Shown here in pieces: positions 2,409-19,080 of a stretch of 38,910 nt of DNA (the first letter of the stretch is position 1; each line of letters starts with the position of its first letter). Below the pieces are notes generated by a model. The model did no database searches. It was not told the origin of the DNA and saw only the letters and a program-made list of their open reading frames with translations. A program made the translations under genes and the position numbers. Source of the DNA: Gemmataceae bacterium (GTDB lineage Bacteria > Planctomycetota > Planctomycetia > Gemmatales > Gemmataceae); NCBI GenBank assembly GCA_009692005.1, contig SHZZ01000035.1, positions 1 to 38,910 of the forward strand, read 5' to 3'.

Positions 2409-5400
2409 ATGTCTCCACCATGCACCTGCTCCCGCGGCCACACCTGGATGCCCAAAAAAACCAGGGGTGAAATTTTGTGCCCATTTTGCGGTGAGAAGGC
2501 GGTCATGAACCCTGCCCAGGGAAGCCGACCCGCCAGCACAGGTCCCGAGGCCTTAATGCCAACTCTGGATGCCGAGGGAATAGAAACCCCGCCACAATCC
2601 GTGACTCATGCCGATTCAGAAAAATCCTTCAGCCCGCCCGGCCCCAGGGTTCCCACGGATCATCCAGCTCAAACTTTTGAGGAAATCCTTCCTGGCAAAA
2701 TGGGCCAGGGGTCGATAACCACCCCAACCCTATCCGATCTGGCCATCAAGGCCTATCAGCAGGAGGGCGGGGAAAAGTCTTCCGGGGCAACCCTTTCGCC
2801 TACATTGGCGGACCCCGAGGAATCCGGGCCAGCGGGTTCTCTCTCGGTACAAAAGCATAAAACAGATCAAACAAGTGAACAAATGGCTCCGGGAACCAAT
2901 CCCACTCTTTCCGAAGTTGGATTGTGGGAAAAAACCGAGGCGGGGGCCAGCCAGGCGAATGAAAAAACCGCACCGCCTTCGCCAACTGTCGATCTGCCCG
3001 GGGGATCAAGCCCTTTGGGTTCAAACCTGGAAACTGCAACGCTTGGAAGCGAGTATCAAAATCCCTTTTCCCCCATCCTTTCCCATGGGGAAGGCAAAAA
3101 AGAGGGCCCTGGCAATCCGGGGGAAACGCTGGACAAGGAAACCAGCCCGTTTCAAAGCGCGCAGCAGACCGGCCCTTCCTCCCAAGAGATGACCGCCACC
3201 CATGCCGCGGGCGCAGACCTGCAAAACCCCAACGCGGCGACCCTGGATTTCCCCTCCGGCGCAGTGACCAACCCGGTGCTGGGGAATACCACGGCGGGCG
3301 TATCCGGCCGCGGGTCGAACCCCAGGCTGGAAAAAACCATCTTTAAAGACCCCATCGGGGGGACTTCCCCTTCGTCGCAAACGCTTCACCTGCCGCCAGT
3401 AGGGAAAAAGCAGGCCAAGGCGATTCCATCACCGCCCGGTTATGAAATCCTTGGAGAATTGGGCCGTGGCGCCATGGGTGTGGTGTACAAGGCCAGGCAA
3501 ATGGGTTTGAAGCGGTTGGTGGCCTTGAAAATGATTTTGACGGCCACGCGTACCACGCCAACCAAGCTGGCGCGGTTTCAAGCGGAGGCGGAGGCGGTGG
3601 CGAAGCTCGACCACCCCAACATTGTCCGCATCTACGAGATCGGCAATATAGACAATCTGCCCTTCTTCTCGTTGGAGTTCGTCACCGGCGGCACGCTAGG
3701 CGACCGGGTTAAAAAGACCACGCCCACCGCCAGGCAGGCTGCAATTATCATCCGCGGCCTGGCCGAGGCCATGGACCTTTCCCACCGCAGAGGCATTGTT
3801 CACAGGGATTTGAAGCCTGCCAACATCTTGCTGGCGCCACCCGACCAGGGAGGGGAAATCACCGATCTCAACACCCTCCCCCTGGACGCTTTTATTCCCA
3901 AGGTCACCGATTTTGGCCTGGTAAAGACCCTGGAAGGTGATTCCTTGGAAACCAAGGAAGGCGCTATTATGGGCACGCCGAGCTACATGGCGCCGGAACA
4001 AGCCCAGGGAAAAGTGACGCAAATCGGCCCGCCCGCCGACATTTACGGCCTGGGCGCCATCCTCTATGACCTGGTCACCGGCATTCCGCCCTTCCGCGGC
4101 GAAACCGTCATGGACACCATCTCTCAGGTGATCAACCGCGAGCCGGTTCCGCCCACGCGCTTGAACACCGGGCTGCCCAGGGACCTGGGCACCATTTGTT
4201 TGAAGTGCCTGGAGAAGGAGCCGAAAAAGCGCTATGCTACCGCCGCCGCCCTGGCCGAGGACCTGCGCCGTTACCTGGTCGGCGAGCCGATTCTGGCCCG
4301 CCCGACTCCCTGGTTCGAACAAGCCTGGAAGTGGGCCAAAAGGAAACCTGCCGTCGCCTCTCTGGCCGCCACCATTTCCCTGGTCCTCCTGGCAACCGCG
4401 GTTGGCGGGTATGTGCTGGCGCGACACGAAAAGAATCGCGCCGATGAAAACTTCCGCCTGCGCCAGGAAGCGGTCAAGGAACGAAACATTGCACAAGAGC
4501 AGCGGGCCTTTGCCGATAGAAACTTCCGCGAAGCGCTTAATACGGTGAACCAGTTGCTGACCCGTGTGGGCACCGACCGGCTGGCCCACGAACCGCGCAT
4601 GGAAAAAGTCCGCCGCGCCTTGCTCCTCGACGCCCGGACGGCGATGCAGCGACTTTTAAAAGACCGTTCCGGGGATTTTCAAGCCCGCAGGCAAACCGGC
4701 CTGACCTTGCGCCATGTCGGCGCCATCGAAGCGCTGCTGGGAAACCATGCCGACGCCGATAAATACCTCGATGAATCGATTCAAATCCTCGGGGCGCTGC
4801 AATTGGAAGATCCCAAAAACGAGGATATCCTTTCCGATCTGGCCGACAGCCACCAGACCCTGGCCCAGTCCCTGTTCAAGCAGAAAAAAGAAGCCGGGTC
4901 GCAAAAGCATTTTCAAGACGCTTTCGATCTCATTGCCAGGGTGGGGCCAAACAGTTCACGGGATATATTGATGGCGGCGGCAGTGATTAACATGGCCCAG
5001 ATCAAAATTGGACAAGGCAAAGCCGCCGAGGCCAGGGCTATTCAGGAAGAGGCGGTGGCTCGGCTAGAAAAAAACCTGGCCAGCGCCGGCGATGAAGGCA
5101 AGTATTCCCTGGCCCAAAGTTTCCAGGTCCTCGGGCAAACCTACGACAAGCTCAAACTCAACGCCCAGGCCGAGGCCGCCTTGCAATCGGCGCTGGCGGT
5201 TTTCCAGAGCCTGGCCAAAGCCAACCCCGACAATCCCGATTACCGACTCGATCAATGCCGCGTGTGGAACGACATCGGCCTACTGCTCCGGGATGCCAAC
5301 CCGGCGGAGGCGGAGAAAAACTACCGCAAGTCGATTGTCGAAAGCCAGAAACTGGCCAAGGAATTTCCCTCCACCCCTGTTTACCGGCAGGAAGTGGCCA

Positions 5401-6980
5401 ACTCGCTAAACAATCTGGGGATTCTTTTGGAATCGGGGGGGAAATCCGAGGAAGCGCAAAAGGTGTTCGAGGAGTCCAGCGGCATCAGCGGGCAATTGGC
5501 GCAGGAGATTCAAAATGTGCCGGATTACCGCGGGAAATTCGCCGGCAGTTTAGCCAGCAGGGCCTTGCAGTTGCAAAATAACGGCCGTTTCAAGGAAGCC
5601 GCCCCCCTGTACCAGCAAGCGCTAAAAGATTTCCGCGCCCTGACTTTGCAATTCCCCGCTGCCGCCGATTTTCAAACCGATTTTGCCGCCACACTACTCA
5701 ACGAGGGAATTCTTCAAATCAGCCTGGGCAAACCCCAGGCCGCTTTGACCACCATTACCCAGGCCCGGGATGAATGGGGGAAAATCCTGGCCCAAGCCCA
5801 GGACATTCCCGAATACCGCAAACATTATTGCCTGGCTTTAAACGCCCTGGCGGAACTGTCCATGGCTTCCGGCAACGCCCCTGAAGGGGAAAGACTCTTT
5901 GACCAATCCATCAAGGATTTAACCTTGCTGGCTTCTCAGTTTCCCAAGGAACCCGATTACCTCTACTTGAAAGCCATTGCTTTAACCACCCTGGGAGACT
6001 ATTTGAAAGCGGCCAAGCAAGGGGACTTGGCCAGCCCGCGCTGGAAAGAAGGCCGAGAGGCCTTCCAGCAATTGGTTTCCTCCTACCCACAGACCCCGTT
6101 GTACAAACAAAAGCTGGCGGAGCATTTGAATAAATGGGCCACTGGCCTTTATCAAACCGCCAAGGTTCAGGAAGCCGCTAAAGCCTGGGAAGAAGCCGCC
6201 TCTCTGCAGCAGCAATTGGTTAATCAGCATCCCACTCTGGAAAATTACCGGGCCGAACTTTCAAAGACCCTTTTTAACCAGGGGCTGTCGGCGCTGGGGC
6301 AAAACGCAATCAACGCCGCCAACGACCTTTTCCTCGCCTCGCTCGAGGTCGTGCGCAAGGGGAATCAACCCGCGTCCTTGACCCTGCTGGCGCCGCAATC
6401 CGCCCCGCTGGCTAAACTTGTCGAGGTTTCCCGGGCCAGTGGCAAATTCCCCGAGGCCGAAAAGTACTTCAAGGAACTGATCGCTCTCTGGCGCAACCTG
6501 GTCCAGCTCGATCCCATGAACACCCTGGCCTCGTTGGAATTGTCCGGGACAATGGCCGGGTTCGCGCAGTTCCTCAGCGGCCGCAACCGCCCGGCCGAGG
6601 GCCTTCCTTTTGCTCTGGAAGCGGTGCAACTGACCAGGGCCGGCGGACCCGCGGCCGCCGACTTCCGCAAGCAAATCCTGTTGCTTGCCTGCGACATTCA
6701 TTCCCTGGCGGGCAAGCCCGCGGACTGCTTAAAATTGCTGGAGGAATTGGCCAAGGCCGGGCCGCTGCGGGGGGAACAATATTTGGAGGCTGCGCAAATA
6801 GCCTCGAAGAGTGTTCAAGGGGCGGAAAAAATGCCCGGTCTTTCCGCTGCGGAAAAAAAGAAACTCGTCGACGGCTGCGCCATGGTGGGCAATGCCTTTT
6901 TGGAGAAAGCCCTGGCCGCTGGGGCCATCACGGTGGAACAGGCCAAGAAGGATGGTTCTTTGGAAGGTCTGCGCAGATAA
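2409..6980 (+). CDS. Membrane Ser/Thr protein kinase with N-terminal zinc ribbon and C-terminal TPR-like region
   Basis: This is a 1523-residue PknB/Hanks-type kinase. The N-terminus has a zinc-ribbon-like pair (CTCSRGH then CPFCG, residues 5-30), followed by about 300 residues of Pro/Thr/Gly-rich linker. The kinase domain begins near residue 345 with a GRGAMGVVYKA glycine loop. It has the ATP-binding lysine at 374 (VALK), the catalytic HRDLKPAN at 465-472, DFG at 501-503 and an APE motif soon after, so it should be active. A single membrane helix (about 648-668) separates the cytoplasmic kinase from an Ala/Leu-rich helical region of some 800 residues with tetratricopeptide-like periodicity. 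That region probably lies outside the membrane and senses or binds partners. An in-frame TAA at 2403 fixes ATG 2409 as the earliest start; no strong ribosome site is seen. Its target is unknown. Confidence 0.93.
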   Translation: MSPPCTCSRGHTWMPKKTRGEILCPFCGEKAVMNPAQGSRPASTGPEALMPTLDAEGIETPPQSVTHADSEKSFSPPGPRVPTDHPAQTFEEILPGKMGQGSITTPTLSDLAIKAYQQEGGEKSSGATLSPTLADPEESGPAGSLSVQKHKTDQTSEQMAPGTNPTLSEVGLWEKTEAGASQANEKTAPPSPTVDLPGGSSPLGSNLETATLGSEYQNPFSPILSHGEGKKEGPGNPGETLDKETSPFQSAQQTGPSSQEMTATHAAGADLQNPNAATLDFPSGAVTNPVLGNTTAGVSGRGSNPRLEKTIFKDPIGGTSPSSQTLHLPPVGKKQAKAIPSPPGYEILGELGRGAMGVVYKARQMGLKRLVALKMILTATRTTPTKLARFQAEAEAVAKLDHPNIVRIYEIGNIDNLPFFSLEFVTGGTLGDRVKKTTPTARQAAIIIRGLAEAMDLSHRRGIVHRDLKPANILLAPPDQGGEITDLNTLPLDAFIPKVTDFGLVKTLEGDSLETKEGAIMGTPSYMAPEQAQGKVTQIGPPADIYGLGAILYDLVTGIPPFRGETVMDTISQVINREPVPPTRLNTGLPRDLGTICLKCLEKEPKKRYATAAALAEDLRRYLVGEPILARPTPWFEQAWKWAKRKPAVASLAATISLVLLATAVGGYVLARHEKNRADENFRLRQEAVKERNIAQEQRAFADRNFREALNTVNQLLTRVGTDRLAHEPRMEKVRRALLLDARTAMQRLLKDRSGDFQARRQTGLTLRHVGAIEALLGNHADADKYLDESIQILGALQLEDPKNEDILSDLADSHQTLAQSLFKQKKEAGSQKHFQDAFDLIARVGPNSSRDILMAAAVINMAQIKIGQGKAAEARAIQEEAVARLEKNLASAGDEGKYSLAQSFQVLGQTYDKLKLNAQAEAALQSALAVFQSLAKANPDNPDYRLDQCRVWNDIGLLLRDANPAEAEKNYRKSIVESQKLAKEFPSTPVYRQEVANSLNNLGILLESGGKSEEAQKVFEESSGISGQLAQEIQNVPDYRGKFAGSLASRALQLQNNGRFKEAAPLYQQALKDFRALTLQFPAAADFQTDFAATLLNEGILQISLGKPQAALTTITQARDEWGKILAQAQDIPEYRKHYCLALNALAELSMASGNAPEGERLFDQSIKDLTLLASQFPKEPDYLYLKAIALTTLGDYLKAAKQGDLASPRWKEGREAFQQLVSSYPQTPLYKQKLAEHLNKWATGLYQTAKVQEAAKAWEEAASLQQQLVNQHPTLENYRAELSKTLFNQGLSALGQNAINAANDLFLASLEVVRKGNQPASLTLLAPQSAPLAKLVEVSRASGKFPEAEKYFKELIALWRNLVQLDPMNTLASLELSGTMAGFAQFLSGRNRPAEGLPFALEAVQLTRAGGPAAADFRKQILLLACDIHSLAGKPADCLKLLEELAKAGPLRGEQYLEAAQIASKSVQGAEKMPGLSAAEKKKLVDGCAMVGNAFLEKALAAGAITVEQAKKDGSLEGLRR

Positions 6981-7052
6981 ATGGTGTCAGCTCATTTTTG
7001 CGTTGCTGGCCGCGCAAGGCGGAGCAGTTATAAATGAACGGACACCATTTAT
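6977..7052. repeat. 76-bp inverted repeat (REP/MITE-like) at convergent gene ends, carrying both stop codons
   Basis: The arms 6977-6997 and 7032-7052 match at 18 of 21 positions as inverted repeats, and the outer 12 bases (ATAAATGGTGTC) match perfectly. The loop contains a second short stem (TTGCG 6998-7002 with CGCAA 7013-7017). The TAA stop of the kinase gene (6978-6980) lies in the left arm. The TAA stop of the opposing gene (7049-7051) lies at the same place in the right arm. It may act as a two-way terminator, but the symmetry and the shared stop codons also suggest a small non-autonomous palindromic element. Confidence 0.7.
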
Positions 7053-8410
7053 TCCATGTTTCCCGTGGCGCTGCCGCTCGCTTTGGGCAACCGCAGCGCC
7101 CCACCGCTCCCCTCGGCCAAGAAGTTATTCGTGATCAAAAGGTTTTTGCAGGCCGCATCGGCCTCTATCGAACACTCGAACCCCTGCAGGCCTTTTCCCG
7201 CCGAGATCAGCGAGGAAGACACGCTGGAGGAATGGCAATTTTTGAAAAGGATGCCTCGCGTTCTCGGCTGGTGAATCTGGGAGGATGCCACCTGGACGAA
7301 GGCGCAGCGGTCGAAGCTGATGGAGGCGTCGATTAACTTCGCTGTCGGCCGCGTGTGCTGCAGCACCAGGCCGGTAAGTTGCACCCGCGAGCAGTTGTCA
7401 AAACGCAAGCAGTCGGTGGAAGGCCCCTGGTATTCCGGGTTGTGGTCGAAACTGTTGGATCCAAGAACAATATGTTCGGAATCCTGGGCCCACAGGGCGT
7501 GGTCGTAACCGCTGTAAATGCAGTTGCCGGCTATGGTCACCCCGCGCGCCGCAATTAAATGAATGGCGGTCTCCTGGCTGCCGATCAGGTTGCCTGTGAT
7601 GGCCAGCAAGCCAACGGCATTGGCATCGCCCCCGCCCTTGCCCACCAGGCGGATGTTGGCTCCGCCCGGGCTGCCCTTGGCCTGAATGGTATTCCCGACA
7701 ATGGTCCCCTCGCGGACGGTTCCCTTGGAGCAATCGAAAAAGATGTCGGCGGAAGACTTCGCCATGGGGTCGAAGTTGTACTCGATGTCGTTGCCGGTGA
7801 TCTGAATGTTGCGCACTTCGCTTTGCTCGATGACGATGCCGCCCTTTTTGCAATAGCTAATGTGCGACCCGGTGATATTAATCTGATGCAAATTGACCTG
7901 GTCAAGGAATACGCCGATGCCGGAAAGATCGTAAAGTTGGCAATCACTGATGAGGACATTGCGGTTTTTCTGTTTGAGCTGAATGCCATGCAGGCACTTG
8001 CGAATGAGTACCGAGCGGATGAGGGGCTGCATGCAGCCTTCAAGGAGAATGCCAACGGCTTCGGGGTGCGCGCCTGCGATCTCCAGGTTTTGAAAAAGCG
8101 GCATCCGTTCCTTTTCCCACACCAGGGGTAAAACGCTTTCGGGCTGCGCGGTCTGCCCTGGCTTGGAATGGGAGGCGAAGGCGTGAAAGGCCGGGCCGCG
8201 TCCCTTCATGAGGACCCTGGATGCCCCGCCTTCCCCAGTGATGGCGTGCGGGCCAGATTTGCCCAGCGCCAGGCGCACCGACTGCGTCAAAACATAAGTG
8301 CCGCGGGGAAAATAGATTTCTCCCTGCCCTTGTTCCACAGCGTGTTGAATGGCCTGGGTGTCGTCGGTGAGTCCATCGCCCTTGGCGCCAAAATCCCGAA
8401 CGGAAGTCAT
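7049..8410 (-). CDS. Right-handed parallel beta-helix protein of the pectate lyase/glycosyl hydrolase 28-like superfamily
   Basis: This is a 453-residue protein starting MTSVRDFGAKGDGLTDDTQ, the typical first turn of Pectate_lyase_3/pectin-lyase-fold proteins. Repeated coils rich in 'ITGN', 'NNFL' and 'GI-V/I' follow to the end. The family includes polysaccharide lyases, hydrolases and phage-tail-like depolymerases; no catalytic residues can be assigned by eye. There is no signal peptide at this start, so it is either cytoplasmic or exported by another route. ATG 8410 is preceded by AAGGGG, a good ribosome site. The gene is divergent from the giant secreted-protein operon and converges on the kinase gene. 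Confidence 0.85.
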   Translation of the reverse strand: MTSVRDFGAKGDGLTDDTQAIQHAVEQGQGEIYFPRGTYVLTQSVRLALGKSGPHAITGEGGASRVLMKGRGPAFHAFASHSKPGQTAQPESVLPLVWEKERMPLFQNLEIAGAHPEAVGILLEGCMQPLIRSVLIRKCLHGIQLKQKNRNVLISDCQLYDLSGIGVFLDQVNLHQINITGSHISYCKKGGIVIEQSEVRNIQITGNDIEYNFDPMAKSSADIFFDCSKGTVREGTIVGNTIQAKGSPGGANIRLVGKGGGDANAVGLLAITGNLIGSQETAIHLIAARGVTIAGNCIYSGYDHALWAQDSEHIVLGSNSFDHNPEYQGPSTDCLRFDNCSRVQLTGLVLQHTRPTAKLIDASISFDRCAFVQVASSQIHQPRTRGILFKNCHSSSVSSSLISAGKGLQGFECSIEADAACKNLLITNNFLAEGSGGALRLPKASGSATGNME

Positions 8411-8747: not shown

Positions 8748-11700
8748 TTGCTCCGTTTTTTCTTTTCTCTTCTGTGCTGGCTGATAGCCGTGCTGGCCTG
8801 GTCCCAGGCCCAAGCGCCTGTACAGGCCCAAGCGCCAATTCCAGGTGCCAGCACCTTGCCAGGTGCCAGCAAGGAGAGTCCGCAACCAGGCAAGGATAAA
8901 CCGGCCGAGTTGTCTGCCCCGCCGGGCGCCATTCTTATCCTTTGCGAAAAAGCCGCCGACACCCTGCGACTGCTGCCCAAGATGGTCCTCTTGCCCCCGG
9001 AAAAATACCAGGAACTCCTGGATGAACTGGCGCGCCTTCGCGAGTCCAAGGCGGCCAAGCCGTTGCCCCCGAGTTTCCTGCGGCTCGATGGGCGGGTCGA
9101 GTCCGGCCAGGTAAAGTGGAAAGCTCAAATCAGTTTTGTCACGGAAAAACCGGGGCAGCAAGTTGCCCTGGGCTTCGCTTCCTCGCCAGCGCTCAGCGCC
9201 TTGCTGCATGGTGAAATCCCCTTGATGAAAAAGACAGCGGAAGGGTTTTTTCTACAGGTGGAAAACCCCGGACGCCACGAACTGGTCATGGAACTGGCCT
9301 CGGGGATCACGCGCAATGGCGAACGCCAGGTTGTGGAACTGGACCTTCCCGGAGCGGCCATCACCCAGTTTACCCTGGCTTTGCCCAAGGATTCCATCGA
9401 TCCCCAGGTGATGGGGAAACCGGGTCCGGATCCTTTGGTTTCCTTCCGGGAAGGAGTTTTGACCGCTGGGGCTGGCGCGACAACGAAAGTGGAAATTCAA
9501 TGGCGCTCGGGCTTGAAGGAAAGCCAGCCGCGGGCCCTGGCGAGCGAGTCGGCGGTGCTGGCAAGGGTGTCCGGCAAGGAACTGCAAATTCGCGCCGAGG
9601 TTCGCGTCATCCCCCTGGGCGGCCCCATGAGTTCCGCCGAGTTAAAGGTTCCATTGGGCGCCACGGTTCGCGGCGCCACCCCGGCGGATGAAGCAAAAAT
9701 CAAGGCCATTGAAAATGCCGAGTCACCCTTTTTCTCAACCCGAAAAATCCTGCTCAAGGAACCCCTGACCGCGCCCCTGCGCTTGCTGGTGGAAAAACAG
9801 CATCCCCTTGGCTCGGGGGGAACATTTCCCATTGGCCCGTTAAACTTGTCCGGCGCCATCCGCCAGACCGGCACGATTCTCCTGGCGAATTCCGGCGAAA
9901 CGGTGCGTTTGCTTCCTCAATTGAGAAACGAGGCGCTACAACAGGAAATAACCCCGGCCGACCGCGCTCTGTCGCCGGAGGCTGTGGCGTCCTTCCGCTA
10001 TTGGAATCCGCCCCAGGTTGAAAAACCGACAGGGCTAACCGGCGCCGGGTCGCTGGCGATTTTTGACCTGCAAGTCTCCCTTGTCAGCGGTTTGCTGGAA
10101 GTGCGCGTCGACCACCTGGGGAAAATCGTTCGCGAAGAGTCGGGCATTCCGCAATGGCGGATCACCGCTACTTTCGATTGCAATCCGGTTCGCACGGGCG
10201 CCAGTCAAATAGAGATCCAGGTTCCGGCGGGATTGCGTTTCGATGCCAGCCGCGGGCCCATCCCCGCTGCTCTGATCCGCGATATTCAAGAAACCGCCAA
10301 CGGAAAGATGACGCTCTTTTTTGCCCAGGACCTTTTGCGCCCCTTTCAATTCTCTTTAGAGTTCACGGCGGATGTGGCTCTCGACCACCTTTCTTCCATC
10401 CCCTTGCCGGTGCCGGTGAATGTGCGGGAAAGGGGCGGCCAGGTGACGCTGACCACGCCCGCCGATTTTGAACTGTTCGCTTCGGAAAAAGCCAACCCGG
10501 CCTTGGAAACCATCAGTCTGGAACCGCATAAGCAAGCCTGGAGTTGGGATAAGTTCCCTCTGCGGGTGGAGGCGCAGTTGCGGCAAATTCAAAAGCAGCC
10601 CGACCTTGTGCAAACCGTCGACTTCTTCCTCGAAGGGCAGGAGTTTCTGGTTAAACAGCGGATTCGCTTTCTCTTCCCTGGCAAGGTGATCCCAGCGGCC
10701 ACGCTCACGATTCCCCCGAGCCTGAACGGGCTGGTCAAAGTGACCAAGGGCGGGCGAGGTTTGCCCGTGGCTGGAATGGAAGGGGTTTTGGAAGTCTCCT
10801 TCATCAACCCGGGTCAACGCGAGCATGAAATCGAGCTGGAATATTCCCTGGCTGTCGGCCTGGACATGGCAGCGGACCTGGCGTTGGTGCAACCTGCTGT
10901 CGGAGCTGGCGAAATCACGGCCAGGGTTTGGGCCGAACCCGGGATGGAATTCACCTCCAGAACTTCTCCATGGCGGCTGGCAACCCTGGACGATCTTGCC
11001 GGTTTCGACCGTTTTCCCAACGCGGTATTCAAGGCCAAAGTCCCCGGCGCCCTGGCGCTGCACTGGGAAAGAAAGTCCGCCCCTTTAGAAAAAGTGGCCC
11101 GCGCCCTTGCTCGCGTGTGGATCTCCCCAACTTCGGTGCAATATCGCGTCGGCTTTTCTTTCAACTCCCTGAGCAGCGGCTTTGTCGATTTGCAGCTCCC
11201 CAAGGAAGCGCGCGGCTTCCGCGCCTTCCACGACAATCGCGAGGTCAACTGGAGGCAACTGGAAGGCGAACGCCTGGTGCGCGTCACTTTGCCACGCGGG
11301 TCATCCCCGGGAAAACCCCTGGAGGTGGAATATTCGCGCCCGGCCGGGACCGCCTTTTCCTTCTCGGGGCAAACCTTGGCCATCCCGGTGATGGACGGGG
11401 AGTCATTCCCCGTCAAATGGTGGGTCCGTTATTCACCCAAGGAGATTCCCCTTTCGCCCGAGCCCGCCCCGGGTCAGGATTTTTCCTGGGTTCGCAGCGG
11501 AGTGTTCTTCACCCGCCTGGCACGGGTTCAAGAAAATCAAGTGGAACAATGGCTGGCCCAGGGAAGTGAAGATCCTTCGGCGGCATCGGCGCGCTTGGCC
11601 GGGCTGGGCCCGCTGGGAGCTGCGGGCGAAACCCTGATTTTCCGCGATACCCCGGAACCACTCGCTTTGCATTTGGTATCCCGAGGCCTGCTGCAAGTGG

Positions 11701-12152
11701 CGCTTTCCGGCCTTCTCCTGGTCGGTGGCTTCTGGCTGAAATCGCGGCCGGGTCTGTGGCAACTGGCCAGCGGTCAGACCGCCTGGCTGGCGCTGGGAAT
11801 GCTTTTTGGCTGGGGTGTTCTCGCCACGCTCCGACCTTCGCTGACGGCGACCTTGCTTATGGGTCTGCAACCAGCGCTGGCGATTTTCTTGGTCTTCCTG
11901 ATGGCCGCGGGCTTGCAGCGCGCCTTGGCCTGGAACCAGTCCCGCAGGTACTCCACTTTTTCTTCCAGCGTGGCTGCAGCCGATTCCGTTTCCATCTCTC
12001 GCGTGGGCAGGAAAGAAGGGTCGAAAGTCTCGCAGGCCCCGGCCCAGGCTTCCACAGGCTATTGGACACAACAAGATGGTTCCACTCCTCCCAAGCCGGT
12101 AATTGTCGGCCGCTCGACTTCCACCCATCCCCCGGACAATCTTCCAGACTAG
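8748..12152 (+). CDS. Giant secreted, membrane-anchored protein of unknown function (module A)
   Basis: The product is 1134 residues long. The start is TTG 8748: an in-frame TAA at 8715 excludes longer forms, a G-rich ribosome-like stretch lies just upstream, and the product begins with a clear signal peptide (LRFFFSLLCWLIAVLAW..A). Residues about 24-46 hold a Pro/Ala/Gln linker made of 18-bp DNA repeats. A first conserved block follows with a helix (PPEKYQELLDELARL) and a beta domain starting 'LRLDGRVESG-V-W'. The body is mostly beta-strand-like sequence with 'P-G-L-F' turns, resembling stacked beta-sandwiches. About 975-1060 holds three hydrophobic segments, and a tail of about 75 residues follows. 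I do not recognise the family. The layout matches each half of the next gene, which starts 10 bases after this stop, so the two are surely co-transcribed. Confidence 0.85.
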   Translation: MLRFFFSLLCWLIAVLAWSQAQAPVQAQAPIPGASTLPGASKESPQPGKDKPAELSAPPGAILILCEKAADTLRLLPKMVLLPPEKYQELLDELARLRESKAAKPLPPSFLRLDGRVESGQVKWKAQISFVTEKPGQQVALGFASSPALSALLHGEIPLMKKTAEGFFLQVENPGRHELVMELASGITRNGERQVVELDLPGAAITQFTLALPKDSIDPQVMGKPGPDPLVSFREGVLTAGAGATTKVEIQWRSGLKESQPRALASESAVLARVSGKELQIRAEVRVIPLGGPMSSAELKVPLGATVRGATPADEAKIKAIENAESPFFSTRKILLKEPLTAPLRLLVEKQHPLGSGGTFPIGPLNLSGAIRQTGTILLANSGETVRLLPQLRNEALQQEITPADRALSPEAVASFRYWNPPQVEKPTGLTGAGSLAIFDLQVSLVSGLLEVRVDHLGKIVREESGIPQWRITATFDCNPVRTGASQIEIQVPAGLRFDASRGPIPAALIRDIQETANGKMTLFFAQDLLRPFQFSLEFTADVALDHLSSIPLPVPVNVRERGGQVTLTTPADFELFASEKANPALETISLEPHKQAWSWDKFPLRVEAQLRQIQKQPDLVQTVDFFLEGQEFLVKQRIRFLFPGKVIPAATLTIPPSLNGLVKVTKGGRGLPVAGMEGVLEVSFINPGQREHEIELEYSLAVGLDMAADLALVQPAVGAGEITARVWAEPGMEFTSRTSPWRLATLDDLAGFDRFPNAVFKAKVPGALALHWERKSAPLEKVARALARVWISPTSVQYRVGFSFNSLSSGFVDLQLPKEARGFRAFHDNREVNWRQLEGERLVRVTLPRGSSPGKPLEVEYSRPAGTAFSFSGQTLAIPVMDGESFPVKWWVRYSPKEIPLSPEPAPGQDFSWVRSGVFFTRLARVQENQVEQWLAQGSEDPSAASARLAGLGPLGAAGETLIFRDTPEPLALHLVSRGLLQVALSGLLLVGGFWLKSRPGLWQLASGQTAWLALGMLFGWGVLATLRPSLTATLLMGLQPALAIFLVFLMAAGLQRALAWNQSRRYSTFSSSVAAADSVSISRVGRKEGSKVSQAPAQASTGYWTQQDGSTPPKPVIVGRSTSTHPPDNLPD
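8805..8876. repeat. Two pairs of 18-bp tandem repeats at the 5' end of the module A gene
   Basis: CAGGCCCAAGCGCC recurs at 8805 and 8823, and CCAGGTGCCAGCA recurs at 8841 and 8859, both with an 18-base period. Each unit encodes six residues, giving two QAQAP-type and two PGAS-type repeats directly after the signal peptide. They form a flexible linker between the export signal and the first folded domain. Confidence 0.75.
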
Positions 12153-12162
12153 GGGGCCGAGG

Positions 12163-15100
12163 ATGGCGCCTGGAGCTTGGATTCTAAGATTAATAGCCTC
12201 CCTTATGTGTGCATCGGCCACATCCCTTTTGGTTTGCAGCCAGGATGTCAGGCCAGCCTCCAGGGCTATTCCCCCCTTTCAATTAATTTCCGTCAATGAG
12301 GACCAACTGGCCAAATTGCTCGACGGCAAGGCAAAGACGGCTTTTGTCCGAATGGAAAAAAAAGAGTTCGATGCGCTTATGGCCAAGGCCAAGGGGCCCG
12401 GCAAAACTCCCCTGGCGGCCTTAACCCAAGCCCATTACCAGGCCCGCTTCACCGATGGCGCACTCGTGGGCAAAGGGCAATGGACCCTGCTGGCGAATAG
12501 CAAGGAGAGCCTCCTGCCAATCCCAGCGCTGGGGCTGGCCATTAAAAAGCTGACCTTTAAAGGTATGGAAGCGCGCCTGGGGGAGTTTTCCAAGGGGCAG
12601 TGGTCCCTCCTGACCCCAGCGGGCAAAGAAGAGAAACTGGATTTTGAATTCTCGGCGCGGTTGACACCCAGGCCCGATGGTTACCATGCGGATTTGAAAC
12701 TGCCGACCAGCGGCATCGGCGTGTTTGAAATCTCGCTTCCCGCCGGGTGGAATCTTGCCAGCCTGGGCGGAGGCATGCGCGAAGGCCCCTTGCCCGGGGA
12801 AGCGGGAGAGAAGCTTTGGCGCATTCGCGCCAGCGGAGAAACTCGGCTGGAAATTTTACTGCAAGACCCGGACCGCCATGCCTTCGCTGGCGGTCTGACT
12901 GCTTTGAGGAATTTTTCCCTGCACCGGCTGGAGCCCGAAGGCGTGGCCAGTGAATTCCAAATCGAGGTGGGGGAAACTAGCCTGGGCCAGAAAGAATTAC
13001 TCTTCGATCTTCCCCCTGGCCTGCGTTTTCTGCAAGTAGAAATGGAAGGCCTGAAATCATGGGAGATCCGTTCGCCTGTGGGGAAAACCGCGGTGTTGGC
13101 GGTGCAGCGGGCGGGCCTCGGCCAGGCGGGCGGGGTTTTGAAAGCCCGGGCCATGGGGCCCTTGCAACTGGCGGAGTTTTGGCAGGCCCCGCGGATGCGG
13201 CCGACCGGCGCCCCTCCCTCACGGGAGGAGATTCGCCTGGAAATCTCTCCCGCCCTGGAATTGCTGGCGGTGGAGCCGGGCAGCTTCCTGGTCCTCGATG
13301 CCGGCCAGAACCGCGATGGAGTGAAAATCGCCGGCCTGGTGGGGGGCGGGCTTGGCGATGCCTCAGGAAAGACCATCCCGCCTAAATTCCTGATGAAACT
13401 CTTGCGAGCGGAATTCCTTACCAGGCAACTCACTCTCATCGACCTTACTCCAACCGGCATCACCCTTTCCTCGCAATTCACCTACCAGATTCTGCAAGGA
13501 AAATGCCCATTCCTCCTGGTGGAATTCCCCGCCGACTTTGAAGTGGAAGAGGTTTCCCTGGAGAACGGGCCTGGAATCAAGGATTGGCTGGTGCGCAAGG
13601 ATGGGGTGAAGCAGGAACTGCGCATTGAATTGGAGGCTGCTCTGGGGCCGCCTGACCCTGGGGAAAAAACGAAAAAAGGGCTTCCGGTTTTGCAGGTGGT
13701 TCTCTCGGCCAAGGGCTTCGGCCCTGCCAAGACAAAAGAATGGAATTTTCCCGCCCTTGGCCCGCGGGGACAACGGGCCAACGAGGGCTTTTTGAGCATC
13801 GCCTATGATCGCGCCACTTTCCAGGTGGAGGTTGCAACCAAAGCCAGGGAAATCCTTCCCCCCTTCGAGAACCCAGGATTCAAATCGACGCCCAACCGCC
13901 TGTTCTCCTTCCTCGACCGCCCCCCTGAAGGCAAAGTCAAAGTGACTGCGGCTTCTCCCCGATTCAAAGCACAGACGCAAACCCGCCTGGCCCTGCGAGG
14001 CAATGCCCTTGAAGCCTCTTTCTTGGTGAGTGTCCATCCGCAAGAAGGTTTGGTCGATACCTTTGACATCGATATCAGCGGGCTGGCGCTCGGGGAGAAA
14101 ATCACCTGGAAGGAAACGCCTGGGAAAAGGGGAATCCGCAAGGTGGAAGGGCTGGGATCGCAAGCTGCTGCCAATGCCGTGGCCTGGCTGGCCGTCCGTC
14201 ACCCGTGGGATTTATCCTGGGCGGCGCTGAACCCCGGGCCGGTGCAGCGCTACCGCGTGTTCCTTTCGCAACCGCTGTCGCGCAATCAATCGATCAAGTT
14301 GGAATCCTTGCCTTCGTTGAAATTGAACGGCCCGGTTTTTGTTGCCCCTCTTCCCAGGGTTCCTTTTGCCATCCCCAGCGAGGGAGAGGCCCGGTTGGAA
14401 TTGCCTCCGGGTTGGAACCCTGAAATCAAGGCGCAGGGCTGGAAGCAAGTGTTTGGATACCCCGCCGGGACATATGTGTATCAACAGGACAACCCCTGGA
14501 ATTCCTTGTCGCTGCAGTTTCCCCGCGGGCAGGAACTGACCCTGGAAGGCGCTGTGGCCAGCGCGGTCCTGCGCTGTTCCATGCGGGAAAACGGTGAAGT
14601 CTTCAACCACTTTTCTTTTACTGTCCCGCCCAGCATGGCCGGCGAGTTTCCTCTTGGGTTGCCCAGCCATTCTTCTCTTCTGAAAGTTCTGGTGCATGGC
14701 AAACCTTTGCCGCTTCTCTCCATCCTGGACGGCAACCAGGTGGCTATTCCTGTCCCAGTGAACTGGGTCATAGGCGAGGCGCAGGTGGATGTCTTTTACC
14801 AAAGCCGAAAGTCGTACGGGTTCTTTCTGCGGAATATCGCCGGAGACTTTCCCAAGCTGCCCTTTCCTGTCAAAACGCAACGGGTGGTTTATTCGCTGCC
14901 TACCGATTGGGAACCCCTGAGCCTGGGAAGCAAGCCGTTGGAAAGAACTGGCGCAAGTCTCGCCAAGGGCAGCCCCGCTTTCCTTGACCGCATCCTAGCG
15001 CTGGGTCTCGGTTCCCCAAAGGACTGGATCAGCGCCTGGAAGGAAATGAAATTGGAAACGGATCCCTTTCGCGCCTTGCAGATTAAAGCTGTCGCTGGAG

Positions 15101-18100
15101 AAAACCGAAATCTCGGAGCGCTGACCCGGGCGCTGCATGAAGCCTGCCAGCTTGCGGATTTGGAATTCCTCCTCGACTTGGAGGGTTTGGAAGCAAAAAA
15201 GTATTCACGAAAAACACCGCTTCCCGACCCCGCCGCCAGCGTGGGTGAGAACCTCGATGCTCTGGGATTGGCCCTTGCGTCCTGGGGAAAAAAGTTGATC
15301 CTAACCAGCGCGGGGGGAAGCCTGCGGCCTTTCCGGGAAGAGGCGGACCAATTGTTGCCCGCCTGGCGCTGGCTCTATCCGCCCGAAAATCTGCCTTTGG
15401 TTGCACCCAAGGGAAAATCTCCCGCCGCTTACTCTGAAAGTCAGGCGACTTGGGAGATCCAGGAATTCAAGCAAGGCCAGCCCCTGTGGATCGCCAACAA
15501 AAACCATTTGCTGGCCATTGGTTTTTTTCTGGCCTTGTTGACTTTGTTGCTCCCTGGGTTACGGCGCTGGAGCCGGTGGCCGCGAATCAACTGGCCTTTG
15601 TGGTTGATCCTGGGAACGCTGATATTGCTTTTGCCTGGCAGTTTTATCCACTTGGCCCTTTGGCCTTTCCTGGCCTTGAGCCTTTCCCTGCTCTGTCAAT
15701 ATGCGGGGCGCTTGGCTGCGGTTGCCCAGCCTGTGAAAACTCTTACCGCGGCAGGTTTGCTTCTCGTCTCTATTTCAGCTTTCACTTCCGGCCAAGCGGA
15801 AGAAAACGAACCTTTCGCAGTTTACCTTCTTTTAGCGAAAGACCGCGCCCTCGAAACGGCAGTGTTTATTCCGCAAAAAATGTTGGAGGAAGTCCAACGG
15901 TTGGCCCAACCAATTAAAGAGGAAATTCGCCCGGCCATTACCCAGGCCACTTGCCTCGGTAGGATTGACGACCAATTCTTGCACTTGAAATGCCAATGGC
16001 AGGTTGTCGCCAAGGAAGCGGGAGTATTGGAACTTCCCGTGTCGGCGGCTTCCGTGGAGGGAGATATCCTGGTCGATGGGGAAAAAGCCTTTCCGCGCTC
16101 GGGCCCCCAGGGACAGATACTGGTGCCCATTCTTTCCGCGGGTCTACGGGGCTTATCCCTGGAAATGCGCTTTCCTATCCGCGTTGAGGGAGGGAAGGAA
16201 ACGGTTTCGTTTCACCCGCCTCAAGTGGTGGAGAGTTTCTTTCAAGGAGAATTCACGGCTGGAATTGAGGAAATAACACTTCAAGGGGCGTTGGGCTCCA
16301 GTGAAATCCGCAAAGAGGGGAATAAAACTCTGGTCCGCGCCGATCTCGGCCGTGTCGGCGGCCCCGTGGTCCTGGCCTGGAAAAAAGGCTTGCCTGCGCC
16401 CCGGGCCCTGCCGCAAATTCACGAAGCTTATTGCTGGGATATCCGCGCCGATTCCTCGCTCCTTAACGCTTTCTTTTCCTGCCAAATTCCCCAGGCCGGG
16501 ACTGATGTGTTGAATCTGCATGTCCCGGCCGGCTTGACCGTGGTGAGTTGCGGCACCGTGGGCGGCCCGGGAGAAACACCGCCACGCATCGTTCAATGGT
16601 CGCGGGCCGTAACGGCGCGCGGCGCCCGCTGGGGATTTCATTTCCCCTCTCGGGTCCAGGGCGAAGTGCTGCTGCTGGTGCAATTGGCGCCGTTATCTCC
16701 ACTGGCCAGCCCATGGAAAATGCCGGTCCCCGAACCCGAAGGGCTGGTTTCCCCTGGCGGGAGTTTCCTGGCTTACCGGGTCCAGGGCTGCCAGGCCTTG
16801 CGAAATACTTTGCCCCTGGGTGTGACGGGGATTCCCAACGCCGCTTTTGCGCCCTTTTGGAAAGGCGCCGGAAAACCCGAGCCCGAATCTCTGGCCTATG
16901 CCTGTTCTTTCCGCAGAGTGCAAGGCAATCTCCCCGAACTGGTCCTTGACCTCGCCCCTTCCCGCCCTTCCTTCACCGTCCGCCAGGAAATACTGATCAC
17001 TCCGACGGAGCAGGACCAATCGCAGTGGGTTAAGATCTCGGCGCGAGGCGAGTCGGCCGCCGGACCGATTCCCTACTTGAACTGGCAGCTCGATCACCCG
17101 GGACGGGTGTTGATCCGCAATATTCGCGGAGAAGAAGTGGCGTCGTGGACGCAAAATGGCAGGGACCTTCTTATCTGGTTCAAGGACAGCTCGCGAAACT
17201 TCTCCCTGGAAATAGAAGCCCAGGTGTTCCCTGTTGGTTCTGGAGAAAGCCGGGAAATCCGGGCCCCGGTCTCGCGCTTTGAACAGTCGGAAAAGACTTT
17301 TACCACCGTCGAGCTGCCCCCCGCCAAGGCAATCAACTACAAGGTGGTGAAATTAACCGGCCTGGCACAGGTGCCAGCCTTGGGCGAAATGCGTTTTCAA
17401 GGCGAAGAGAAAAATTATCTGGTGCGGCTCCTGCCAACGCCCGTCACCCAGCCTGCCATGACCCCGTCATGCCTGATAGTTGAACCTGGTGAAAAAGGGA
17501 TCACCCTGCGGTTGGAAGCGCTCTTTCCCGCAGGCCGGCCGGGCATGCCAAACCCAATGCAATTGGAAGTGAGGAACTGGCCGACGGGGCCAGCGCGCTT
17601 GCAGGTCCCCGAAGGAATGAAAAAAGATGAAAAGCTTCTGGGCAACGCGGAAAGGATCTGGACCCTTTATCCTCTGCCAGGTGGACCCGCCTGGCGGTTA
17701 ACCCTGGAAGGTGTGTTGCCCTTGAGCGAAGGAAAAAAAGAGATAGTCCTGCCGCAGTGGGCTTTCGCTGGGGTAGCCGGGGCGGCAAACTATTATTCCT
17801 TGCCTTTGGCAGGCCCCAAAGTTTTGGCCACCCGTTCCTGCCAGGAAGTGTCGTTCCGGGAATTACCGAAGGAACTGACCGCGCTGGGCTTCTCCGGAGC
17901 CGATTATTCAACCCGGGTTTACCGGGCCACTGGACCTCAACCTGTGGTGATTCTCGAAACTAACGATGAGCGAATTCCCAGCGCAGAGCCTCTTCGCTTG
18001 GTGCATGTGGAAAGGGAAGTGGTCCTTGGCCCACCGGCCATGCACCGGGTGCAATGGTGGATCATTAAAAAAGACCAGTCGGGGATCCCCGTCGGCCTGC

Positions 18101-19080
18101 CCGCCGGTTCGGAAAACCCCCGTTTTTGGATTGACCAGGAGGCGGTGCAACCTCTGGCTTTTCACGAGCATCGGCACATCCTACCGTCGCTGAATCGCGA
18201 AGGGCTGGTGCGGGTGCGGGCGGAGTGGAACCAGCCGGGGAAACAGGACGAGTCAGAAAGCCGGAGAATCCCAACCGCTCTGCCGTTGTTAGGAATTGGC
18301 GATGCCGTGCAGGCAACTTGGACTTTGCGCTTGCCCCGGGGAATGGAAATCACCCCTTCCCCTAATAAGGAAACGGTTGGGCTAACCCCGGCGTTGCGCG
18401 CTCGAGCCCAGGCCTTGCTCCTGGGAACCCAATCCCTTTTGCAAAACTTCAGCGACAAGAATCCAAATCCCTTGGCCAGCCTGCAATTGCAGTTTTACTA
18501 CACGCTCTTGCGGGCGGAAATATTGGCCCGATTGCTAGCGGAAAAAATCGGCGAATCCAACCCCTGGTGGCAAGAACTGGACGAGGTGAATAAAAGCCTG
18601 CTGGAAAAAGCTGGGCTGGAAAACCTGCGCGCCACGGCCCGAGCCACCGCCAAGGAACGCCTTCCCCTCGACCTCGAAGCCCCCCTTTATTTCCAAATCC
18701 ATCCTTTTGAAAGCGATCCGCTTCCAGCCGGGGAACTTCTGGTTACGCTTCCCTTGGGCAGCTTGCCCGCTTGGGAGTTGACGACAAACCGGGCCAGTCC
18801 GGCCACCCTGACTATCTGGGCTTGGCCAGGTTGGTTGCTCATGGTGGTTTTTTCCCTGGCCGTAAAATTCTTTCCCCATTCTGCCGCTTTCATGCGAAAA
18901 TCGTGGCCCGAGCAAATCCTCCTTTTGGCCTTGGCCCTCTGGCTAATTTTGGGTTTGGTCGGCATTGTTGCCTTGCTGGCGGGCTTGGGTTTGCTGATTC
19001 GAATGGCGTTGCTGGCCAGGCGTTTTTATTTCTGGCGCCGTTCGCCTGAACTCGCTTCAGACCCTGAAAGCCTTACCTGA
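12163..19080 (+). CDS. Giant secreted membrane protein, apparent fusion of two related modules (B1 + B2)
   Basis: The product is 2305 residues from ATG 12163, which has AGGGGG at 12151-12156. A TTG at 12103 would overlap the upstream gene and spoil the signal peptide (MAPGAWILRLIASLMCASA). Half B1 (to about 1190) opens with 'FVRMEKKEFDALMAKAK' and then a beta block 'YQARFTDGALVGKGQW', carries long beta-rich domains, and ends in several membrane helices (about 1115-1180). A second signal-like helix (LTAAGLLLVSISAFTSGQA, from residue 1194) begins half B2. B2 repeats the opening pattern ('VFIPQKMLEEVQRLAQ', 'CLGRIDDQFLHLKCQW') and ends in membrane helices at about 2216-2238 and 2248-2285. The same order (export helix, short helical motif, beta body, C-terminal helices) is seen in module A upstream. 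The function is unknown; an envelope or surface-structure role is inference only. Confidence 0.87.
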   Translation: MAPGAWILRLIASLMCASATSLLVCSQDVRPASRAIPPFQLISVNEDQLAKLLDGKAKTAFVRMEKKEFDALMAKAKGPGKTPLAALTQAHYQARFTDGALVGKGQWTLLANSKESLLPIPALGLAIKKLTFKGMEARLGEFSKGQWSLLTPAGKEEKLDFEFSARLTPRPDGYHADLKLPTSGIGVFEISLPAGWNLASLGGGMREGPLPGEAGEKLWRIRASGETRLEILLQDPDRHAFAGGLTALRNFSLHRLEPEGVASEFQIEVGETSLGQKELLFDLPPGLRFLQVEMEGLKSWEIRSPVGKTAVLAVQRAGLGQAGGVLKARAMGPLQLAEFWQAPRMRPTGAPPSREEIRLEISPALELLAVEPGSFLVLDAGQNRDGVKIAGLVGGGLGDASGKTIPPKFLMKLLRAEFLTRQLTLIDLTPTGITLSSQFTYQILQGKCPFLLVEFPADFEVEEVSLENGPGIKDWLVRKDGVKQELRIELEAALGPPDPGEKTKKGLPVLQVVLSAKGFGPAKTKEWNFPALGPRGQRANEGFLSIAYDRATFQVEVATKAREILPPFENPGFKSTPNRLFSFLDRPPEGKVKVTAASPRFKAQTQTRLALRGNALEASFLVSVHPQEGLVDTFDIDISGLALGEKITWKETPGKRGIRKVEGLGSQAAANAVAWLAVRHPWDLSWAALNPGPVQRYRVFLSQPLSRNQSIKLESLPSLKLNGPVFVAPLPRVPFAIPSEGEARLELPPGWNPEIKAQGWKQVFGYPAGTYVYQQDNPWNSLSLQFPRGQELTLEGAVASAVLRCSMRENGEVFNHFSFTVPPSMAGEFPLGLPSHSSLLKVLVHGKPLPLLSILDGNQVAIPVPVNWVIGEAQVDVFYQSRKSYGFFLRNIAGDFPKLPFPVKTQRVVYSLPTDWEPLSLGSKPLERTGASLAKGSPAFLDRILALGLGSPKDWISAWKEMKLETDPFRALQIKAVAGENRNLGALTRALHEACQLADLEFLLDLEGLEAKKYSRKTPLPDPAASVGENLDALGLALASWGKKLILTSAGGSLRPFREEADQLLPAWRWLYPPENLPLVAPKGKSPAAYSESQATWEIQEFKQGQPLWIANKNHLLAIGFFLALLTLLLPGLRRWSRWPRINWPLWLILGTLILLLPGSFIHLALWPFLALSLSLLCQYAGRLAAVAQPVKTLTAAGLLLVSISAFTSGQAEENEPFAVYLLLAKDRALETAVFIPQKMLEEVQRLAQPIKEEIRPAITQATCLGRIDDQFLHLKCQWQVVAKEAGVLELPVSAASVEGDILVDGEKAFPRSGPQGQILVPILSAGLRGLSLEMRFPIRVEGGKETVSFHPPQVVESFFQGEFTAGIEEITLQGALGSSEIRKEGNKTLVRADLGRVGGPVVLAWKKGLPAPRALPQIHEAYCWDIRADSSLLNAFFSCQIPQAGTDVLNLHVPAGLTVVSCGTVGGPGETPPRIVQWSRAVTARGARWGFHFPSRVQGEVLLLVQLAPLSPLASPWKMPVPEPEGLVSPGGSFLAYRVQGCQALRNTLPLGVTGIPNAAFAPFWKGAGKPEPESLAYACSFRRVQGNLPELVLDLAPSRPSFTVRQEILITPTEQDQSQWVKISARGESAAGPIPYLNWQLDHPGRVLIRNIRGEEVASWTQNGRDLLIWFKDSSRNFSLEIEAQVFPVGSGESREIRAPVSRFEQSEKTFTTVELPPAKAINYKVVKLTGLAQVPALGEMRFQGEEKNYLVRLLPTPVTQPAMTPSCLIVEPGEKGITLRLEALFPAGRPGMPNPMQLEVRNWPTGPARLQVPEGMKKDEKLLGNAERIWTLYPLPGGPAWRLTLEGVLPLSEGKKEIVLPQWAFAGVAGAANYYSLPLAGPKVLATRSCQEVSFRELPKELTALGFSGADYSTRVYRATGPQPVVILETNDERIPSAEPLRLVHVEREVVLGPPAMHRVQWWIIKKDQSGIPVGLPAGSENPRFWIDQEAVQPLAFHEHRHILPSLNREGLVRVRAEWNQPGKQDESESRRIPTALPLLGIGDAVQATWTLRLPRGMEITPSPNKETVGLTPALRARAQALLLGTQSLLQNFSDKNPNPLASLQLQFYYTLLRAEILARLLAEKIGESNPWWQELDEVNKSLLEKAGLENLRATARATAKERLPLDLEAPLYFQIHPFESDPLPAGELLVTLPLGSLPAWELTTNRASPATLTIWAWPGWLLMVVFSLAVKFFPHSAAFMRKSWPEQILLLALALWLILGLVGIVALLAGLGLLIRMALLARRFYFWRRSPELASDPESLT

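Follow-up and report, generated by a model that had tools for sequence, protein, structure and literature searches.

Two adjacent genes of a Gemmataceae genome, A and B, encode three modules (A itself, and B1 and B2 fused in B) that are homologous along their length, as judged from profile alignments, and that, on the predicted structures of A and B1, set a known fold in a new arrangement. Roughly four fifths of the family's genomes carry the A–B pair, a share that rises to nine tenths among well-assembled genomes, and the pair occurs in about 27 families across the phylum. This widely kept pair has neither a Pfam or NCBIfam entry nor a sequence relative of solved structure. The best explanation that we can offer, at a probability of roughly 0.4, is that A, B1 and B2 form a non-enzymatic, periplasm-facing scaffold complex of the inner membrane, for which B is cleaved, and which tethers or holds clients or polymers.

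Three homologous modules in two genes

The window, i.e., the whole stretch of DNA analysed (38,910 nucleotides), is one whole contig of a 4.19 Mb genome in 99 contigs, in which A and B are each present in single copy. Both reading frames are open at the positions given in an earlier, sequence-only reading of this DNA, and their parts are as follows.

8748..12152, + strand: gene A, 1134 aa, a single module (uninterrupted reading frame; AlphaFold2 model; homologues in 82 of 102 genomes of the order)
8748..8816, + strand: export leader of A, MLRFFFSLLCWLIAVLAWSQAQA, with a hydrophobic peak at residues 1–19 and an AxA motif
8925..9050, + strand: N-terminal strand-helix motif of A, GAI...VLLPPEKYQELLDELARL, conserved among homologues; helix 84–101 in the model
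9057..9515, + strand: domain D1 of A (residues 104–256), M1-NTD-like beta-sandwich (VIA match to 1z1w; D1 profile matches B1 and B2)
9525..11081, + strand: domains D2–D4 of A (residues 260–778), tandem beta-sandwiches on the plan of D1 (model DSSP; hhalign)
11082..11681, + strand: domain D5 of A (residues 779–978), membrane-proximal, M1-NTD-like (VIA to M1/M61 peptidase N-domains)
11682..11948, + strand: three-helix membrane anchor of A (residues 979–1067), model helices 979–999, 1011–1028 and 1030–1067
11949..12149, + strand: C-terminal tail of A, presumed cytoplasmic, with an RR...LPxFxR-type juxtamembrane motif in aligned homologues
12103..19080, + strand: gene B, 2325 aa, an uninterrupted reading frame of two fused modules, B1 and B2
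12418..14949, + strand: B1 body (B residues 106–949), five tandem beta-sandwich domains (AlphaFold2 model)
15112..15309, + strand: alpha/beta insertion of B1 (B residues 1004–1069; AlphaFold2 model), a weak STN-like candidate
15499..15711, + strand: three-helix membrane anchor of B1 (B residues 1133–1203; model helices, hydrophobic peaks)
15733..15798, + strand: internal signal-peptide-like leader of B, predicted cut after B residue 1232, between AFTSGQA and EENE
15853..18345, + strand: strand-helix motif and beta-rich body of B2 (B residues 1251–2081; hhalign to A over 774 columns, 99.8%)
18808..19002, + strand: C-terminal membrane helices of B2 (B residues ~2236–2300), hydrophobic peaks 2236–2254 and 2272–2290

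The TTG start codon of A is preceded by GGGGAG upstream. For B, the sequence favours the ATG at 12163, ten bases past the stop codon of A, over the TTG at 12103 as the start, and this choice abolishes the A/B overlap. B is shorter, at 1169–1953 aa, in several members of the family to which the window belongs.

The order of parts in A is a leader, a strand-helix, five beta-sandwich domains, three membrane helices and a short tail. Three membrane helices follow the body in both A and B1, the anchor of A showing three hydrophobic peaks in most homologues; B2 has two clear helices, and some B2 homologues have three. The shared plan proposed in the sequence-only reading holds for the short helical motifs, which were located at A83 (PPEKYQELLDELARL), at B86 in B1 (KKEFDALMAKAK) and at B1257 in B2 (PQKMLEEVQRLAQ). 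It holds only partly for the 'GR-x-...W' block, which is exact in A (GRVESGQVKW at A115) and in B2 (GRIDDQFLHLKCQW at B1286) and is kept only loosely in B1 (ARFTDGALVGKGQW at B114).

The homology of the modules was examined using profiles built from 19–30 homologues, those of A and B being taken from the same family, with B divided at residue 1204. Alignment by hhalign gave 99.7% probability over 790 columns for A–B1 (P 7e-27), 99.8% over 774 columns for A–B2 (P 2e-28) and 99.6% over 716 columns for B1–B2 (P 5e-25). All three alignments are colinear, and reversed-profile controls reached at most 9% probability and at most 26 columns. The comparison on which the claim of common descent had been staked is thus significant for every pair. 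At the level of single domains, the D1 profile of A matches D1 of B2 (98.3%) and D1 of B1 (95.2%), and no other domains. Domains D2–D5 are alike within A (D2–D4 87.5%, D2–D3 72%, D3–D4 68%), and off-register self matches are consistent with an internal repeat.

A tree of 48 modules resolves A, B1 and B2 into three clades (SH-aLRT 99/96/99), which bears out the proposal of an old duplication. In a distant genome (locus L123), the modules are encoded by three consecutive genes (1128, 1237 and 1138 aa), one of which falls inside each clade, showing that the modules had triplicated before these lineages diverged. A second distant genome (locus L194) likewise has three separate module genes (1202, 1419 and 1470 aa), and a fourth module lies downstream of B at one locus (L192). 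A further candidate module, picked for its length (L079 2163–5549, 1128 aa), has the composition of a likely spurious translation and was rejected.

The stretch that links the final B1 helix to the B2 strand-helix contains KTLTAAGLLLVSISAFTSGQA, followed by EENE. A signal-peptidase-type motif follows the helix of this internal leader in 17 of 21 homologues, vs. 68 of 193 other membrane helices (p 8e-5) and, for comparison, 23 of 29 for the true leader of A; this is a crude motif count, made with no trained predictor and designed after the sequences had been seen. As a sequence feature, the internal leader suggests cleavage of B into its two modules; together with A, the products would then equal the three proteins of the unfused lineages. 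Such a cleaved polyprotein has a precedent in FbcH of Bradyrhizobium (cytochrome b/c1).

Predicted fold and nearest known systems

The AlphaFold2 model of A (m59dd20ea73fe; mean pLDDT 78, pTM 0.35) shows a leader helix, a strand-helix, five consecutive beta-sandwiches (104–978), three hydrophobic helices (979–1067) and a disordered tail, with domain borders drawn by eye from the secondary structure of the model. The model of B1 (mf9591d96acbd; pLDDT 71, pTM 0.35), made from B1's own alignment, repeats this plan and adds an alpha/beta insertion near B 1004–1069. The modest pTM of 0.35 leaves the arrangement of the domains uncertain in both models. The insertion aligns in register with STN (PF07660) segments by hhalign, although weakly (20% probability) and with no Pfam match, and is possibly STN-like. 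The two models have the same predicted fold, so that the second refuting condition, folds without relation, does not apply to A and B1; B2 was compared by profile.

A Foldseek search of the PDB returned human ribophorin I as the best match for both models (E 3e-8 and 3e-9). In VIA superpositions, D1 of A matches 1z1w with Z 12.5 and rmsd 3.2 over 106–255, and D5 of A matches the N-domains of M1/M61 peptidases with Z 12–13 and rmsd 2.2–3.6 over ~140–160 residues. Overall, single domains align to these N-domains with Z 12–13.5 and rmsd 2.2–3.6, and B1 matches M1 N-domains with Z ~13. Two-domain stretches align to Ost1/ribophorin I with Z 12.7 over 336 residues for A and Z 13.2–14.8 over ~295–325 residues for B1. 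The rmsd of these two-domain alignments is 13–22, as expected if the domains are hinged, and the single-domain values are therefore the safer measure. These matches suggest that A and B1 share the kind of fold seen in M1 N-domains and ribophorin I. The claim is limited to similarity of fold, because no link by sequence, Pfam, NCBIfam or PDB was found: neither Pfam nor NCBIfam gave a match for the modules, or one consistent among their homologues, and the same is true of sequence relatives in the PDB. The modules were earlier said to belong to no known family, which stands as far as sequence goes; their fold, however, is a known one by Foldseek and VIA. Literature searches found no description of the A/B family and no tie between Ost1 and the aminopeptidase fold, so that this tie rests on the structural matches of the present analysis.

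Ost1 carries a pair of similar lumenal domains, mainly beta in structure (PMC7226087), and ribophorin I has been described from eukaryotes and Asgard archaea (PMC11417166). Like this non-catalytic oligosaccharyltransferase subunit, the modules have tandem beta-sandwiches outside the membrane, with a membrane helix next in the chain, a feature seen in the models of both A and B1. However, we note several differences. First, ribophorin I/Ost1 has two domains and one helix, whereas an A/B module has five domains and two to three helices. Second, identity is 7–12%, with no profile match, and the ribophorin I Pfam match is absent in A, B1, B2 and their homologues. Third, A/B comprises three paralogous modules, and the genome that carries it has no STT3-family protein; across the family, just 4 of 61 genomes have one that passes the curated cut-off. 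Membership of the ribophorin I family (PF04597) was rejected, with 0 of 119 phylum genomes above the cut-off and an unrelated gene as the best weak match. Shared ancestry with eukaryotic and Asgard ribophorin I, by which a phylum-wide planctomycete envelope complex would consist of three Ost1-like domain strings, two of which signal peptidase would free from a polyprotein, is a long shot. If true, it would give ribophorin I a bacterial relative.

A family link to the M1 N-domain (PF17900) was likewise rejected: the modules have no Pfam match to it, and hhalign against a profile built from 34 planctomycete sequences gave at most 1%, equal to the reversed control. The single domains superpose well on the M1/M61 aminopeptidase N-domain, but A/B differs from these enzymes in lacking a catalytic domain, in repeating the domain five times and in being membrane-anchored.

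Distribution, co-occurrence and gene order

Searches with family profiles detect B in 75 of 95 family genomes, which represent 33 of 39 genera and include 59 of the 66 good genomes. A turns up in 82 of 102 genomes across the order, among them 61 of the 71 good genomes. The co-occurrence check that had been suggested was carried out in the 95 family genomes, where 73 have both genes, 17 have neither and five have one (A only in three, B only in two; Fisher p 7e-14, from a hand tally and a test that ignores kinship between genomes). The five single-gene genomes are drafts of 480–1420 contigs. About one fifth of the family genomes lack both genes, and some of these are well assembled, indicating that the system is not strictly essential. 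In 43 of 43 loci with both genes mapped, A immediately precedes B in the same orientation, commonly with a 4-base overlap. This fixed order and the co-occurrence lend indirect support to the idea of a dedicated multi-part assembly.

Across the phylum, the A profile matches 55 of 294 sampled genomes from about 27 families, a lower bound since the profile derives from one family. The named relatives recovered with A are all planctomycete MAGs. One MAG titled 'Candidatus Kuenenia stuttgartiensis' (L096, CAMDHK010000059.1) has an A–B pair and flanks that resemble those of Planctomycetaceae-titled MAGs, which probably reflects an error in the MAG or in its label. In another assembly (G376:C81, 1147–9418 and 19931–28202), the A–B locus occurs twice in opposite orientation with identical scores, resembling a palindromic assembly artefact. 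In a third (G378:C1 5598835–5602234), A lies in four overlapping pieces, as if frameshifted by sequencing error or as a pseudogene.

Possible function and gene neighbours

Were A, B1 and B2 a scaffold as proposed above, each module would be exported by its own leader, its five tandem beta-sandwiches would form a periplasmic arm, and its two or three helices would anchor it in the inner membrane. Signal peptidase would cut polyprotein B at the internal leader (about B residue 1232), and the single-module proteins A, B1 and B2 would assemble into one complex, in which the N-terminal strand-helix could dock the modules together. The complex, having no enzyme activity of its own, would be a long multi-domain periplasmic clamp or tether that holds clients or envelope polymers. 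The proposal starts from the homology of the modules, the conservation of the gene pair and the triplication, adds the predicted fold of A and B1, and supposes the cleavage, the complex and the holding role.

The leaders, the several membrane helices and the Arg-rich tail past the last helix suggest that the body is periplasmic and the tail cytoplasmic. The leaders and multi-helix anchor agree with the envelope location first put forward, whereas the alternative of a surface structure fits poorly, since the hydrophobic helices and the Arg-rich C-terminal tail would fix a module in the inner membrane, with its body on the periplasmic side. The invariant residues of the modules are mostly Gly, Pro, Trp, Leu and Ala, which, together with an HExxH motif that is not conserved, argues against an enzyme. 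A conserved periplasm-facing scaffold would be a natural candidate to test for the planctomycete periplasm. Planctomycetes have an enlarged, invaginated periplasmic space, and peptidoglycan genes have been lost in most members of this group (PMC8567305).

The main rivals to the scaffold are a sensor and an Ost1-like holder of substrate. As an envelope sensor, the periplasmic strings would detect the state of the envelope and signal through the helices to a regulator, for example a Ser/Thr kinase or an ECF sigma/anti-sigma pair. In one genome (G124:C96; L188 1887–2435, L125 11197–16890), four genes overlap in a row, those for an ECF sigma factor and for a 1897-aa VWA/YfbK-type protein with one membrane helix, followed by A and B, and in another (G064, L195) a VWA gene lies upstream of a B-like gene. 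ECF-like genes occur near A at two more loci (L065 and L131), and a large Ser/Thr kinase gene occurs near A at two, one of them in the window. However, the VWA gene is found at only two of about 50 loci and is absent from the other mapped ones, and YfbK-type VWA proteins, known with ECF sigma, have no homology to A/B. These bacteria are rich in ECF and kinase genes, such that single neighbours of these kinds may be due to chance, and A and B have no signalling domain. A sensor is unlikely, although it fares best among the rivals.

Somewhat less likely still is that the modules are substrate-holding subunits of a membrane enzyme, as Ost1 is beside its glycosyltransferase. The top structural match of both models and their tandem domains adjoining a membrane helix speak for this role, and the scarcity of STT3 described above, the missing ribophorin I profile link and the lack of a conserved neighbouring enzyme speak against it. 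An adhesin for cell–cell or surface contact, on the pattern of an integrin leg, appears improbable. The Foldseek matches include integrin alpha chains, and the calf/thigh domains of their leg are likewise serial beta-sandwiches on a membrane anchor, but the superpositions are poor (TM about 0.1–0.15) and could suit any beta-sandwich chain. Moreover, no common domain order is shown, and the multi-helix anchor indicates the bacterial inner membrane, beneath the outer membrane. A degenerate or active M1-kind peptidase, for which the M1/M61 N-domain fold would be the argument, is very improbable given the lack of a catalytic domain and of an M1 N-domain profile match, and the sole HExxH (B 2021, in B2), rejected as an active site, is unique to this sequence (0 of 20 homologues).

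Among the mapped loci, there are no conserved operon partners beyond A–B; the neighbours vary between lineages and point to no partner or substrate. An S9 prolyl oligopeptidase-family gene lies immediately or almost immediately downstream of B, on the same strand, at loci L066, L074, L075, L076, L078, L080, L087 and L092 (Pfam assignment checked in four), and was rejected as a general partner since it is confined to several loci. A membrane protein upstream of the locus (a glycosyltransferase by eye) was rejected as a partner because it is confined to close relatives. HtrA-like (trypsin/PDZ) protease genes occur near A–B at four loci, with Pfam confirmation for one (L191 4988–7009) and assignment by similarity cluster and by eye for the other three (L117, L124 and L128). 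In the window, a Ser/Thr protein kinase with TPR repeats (2409..6980, + strand, 1523 aa) is encoded two genes upstream of A, and a kinase gene is also near A at locus L064. Just upstream of A, the window encodes a right-handed beta-helix protein (7049..8410, − strand), whose position is kept in seven close relatives.
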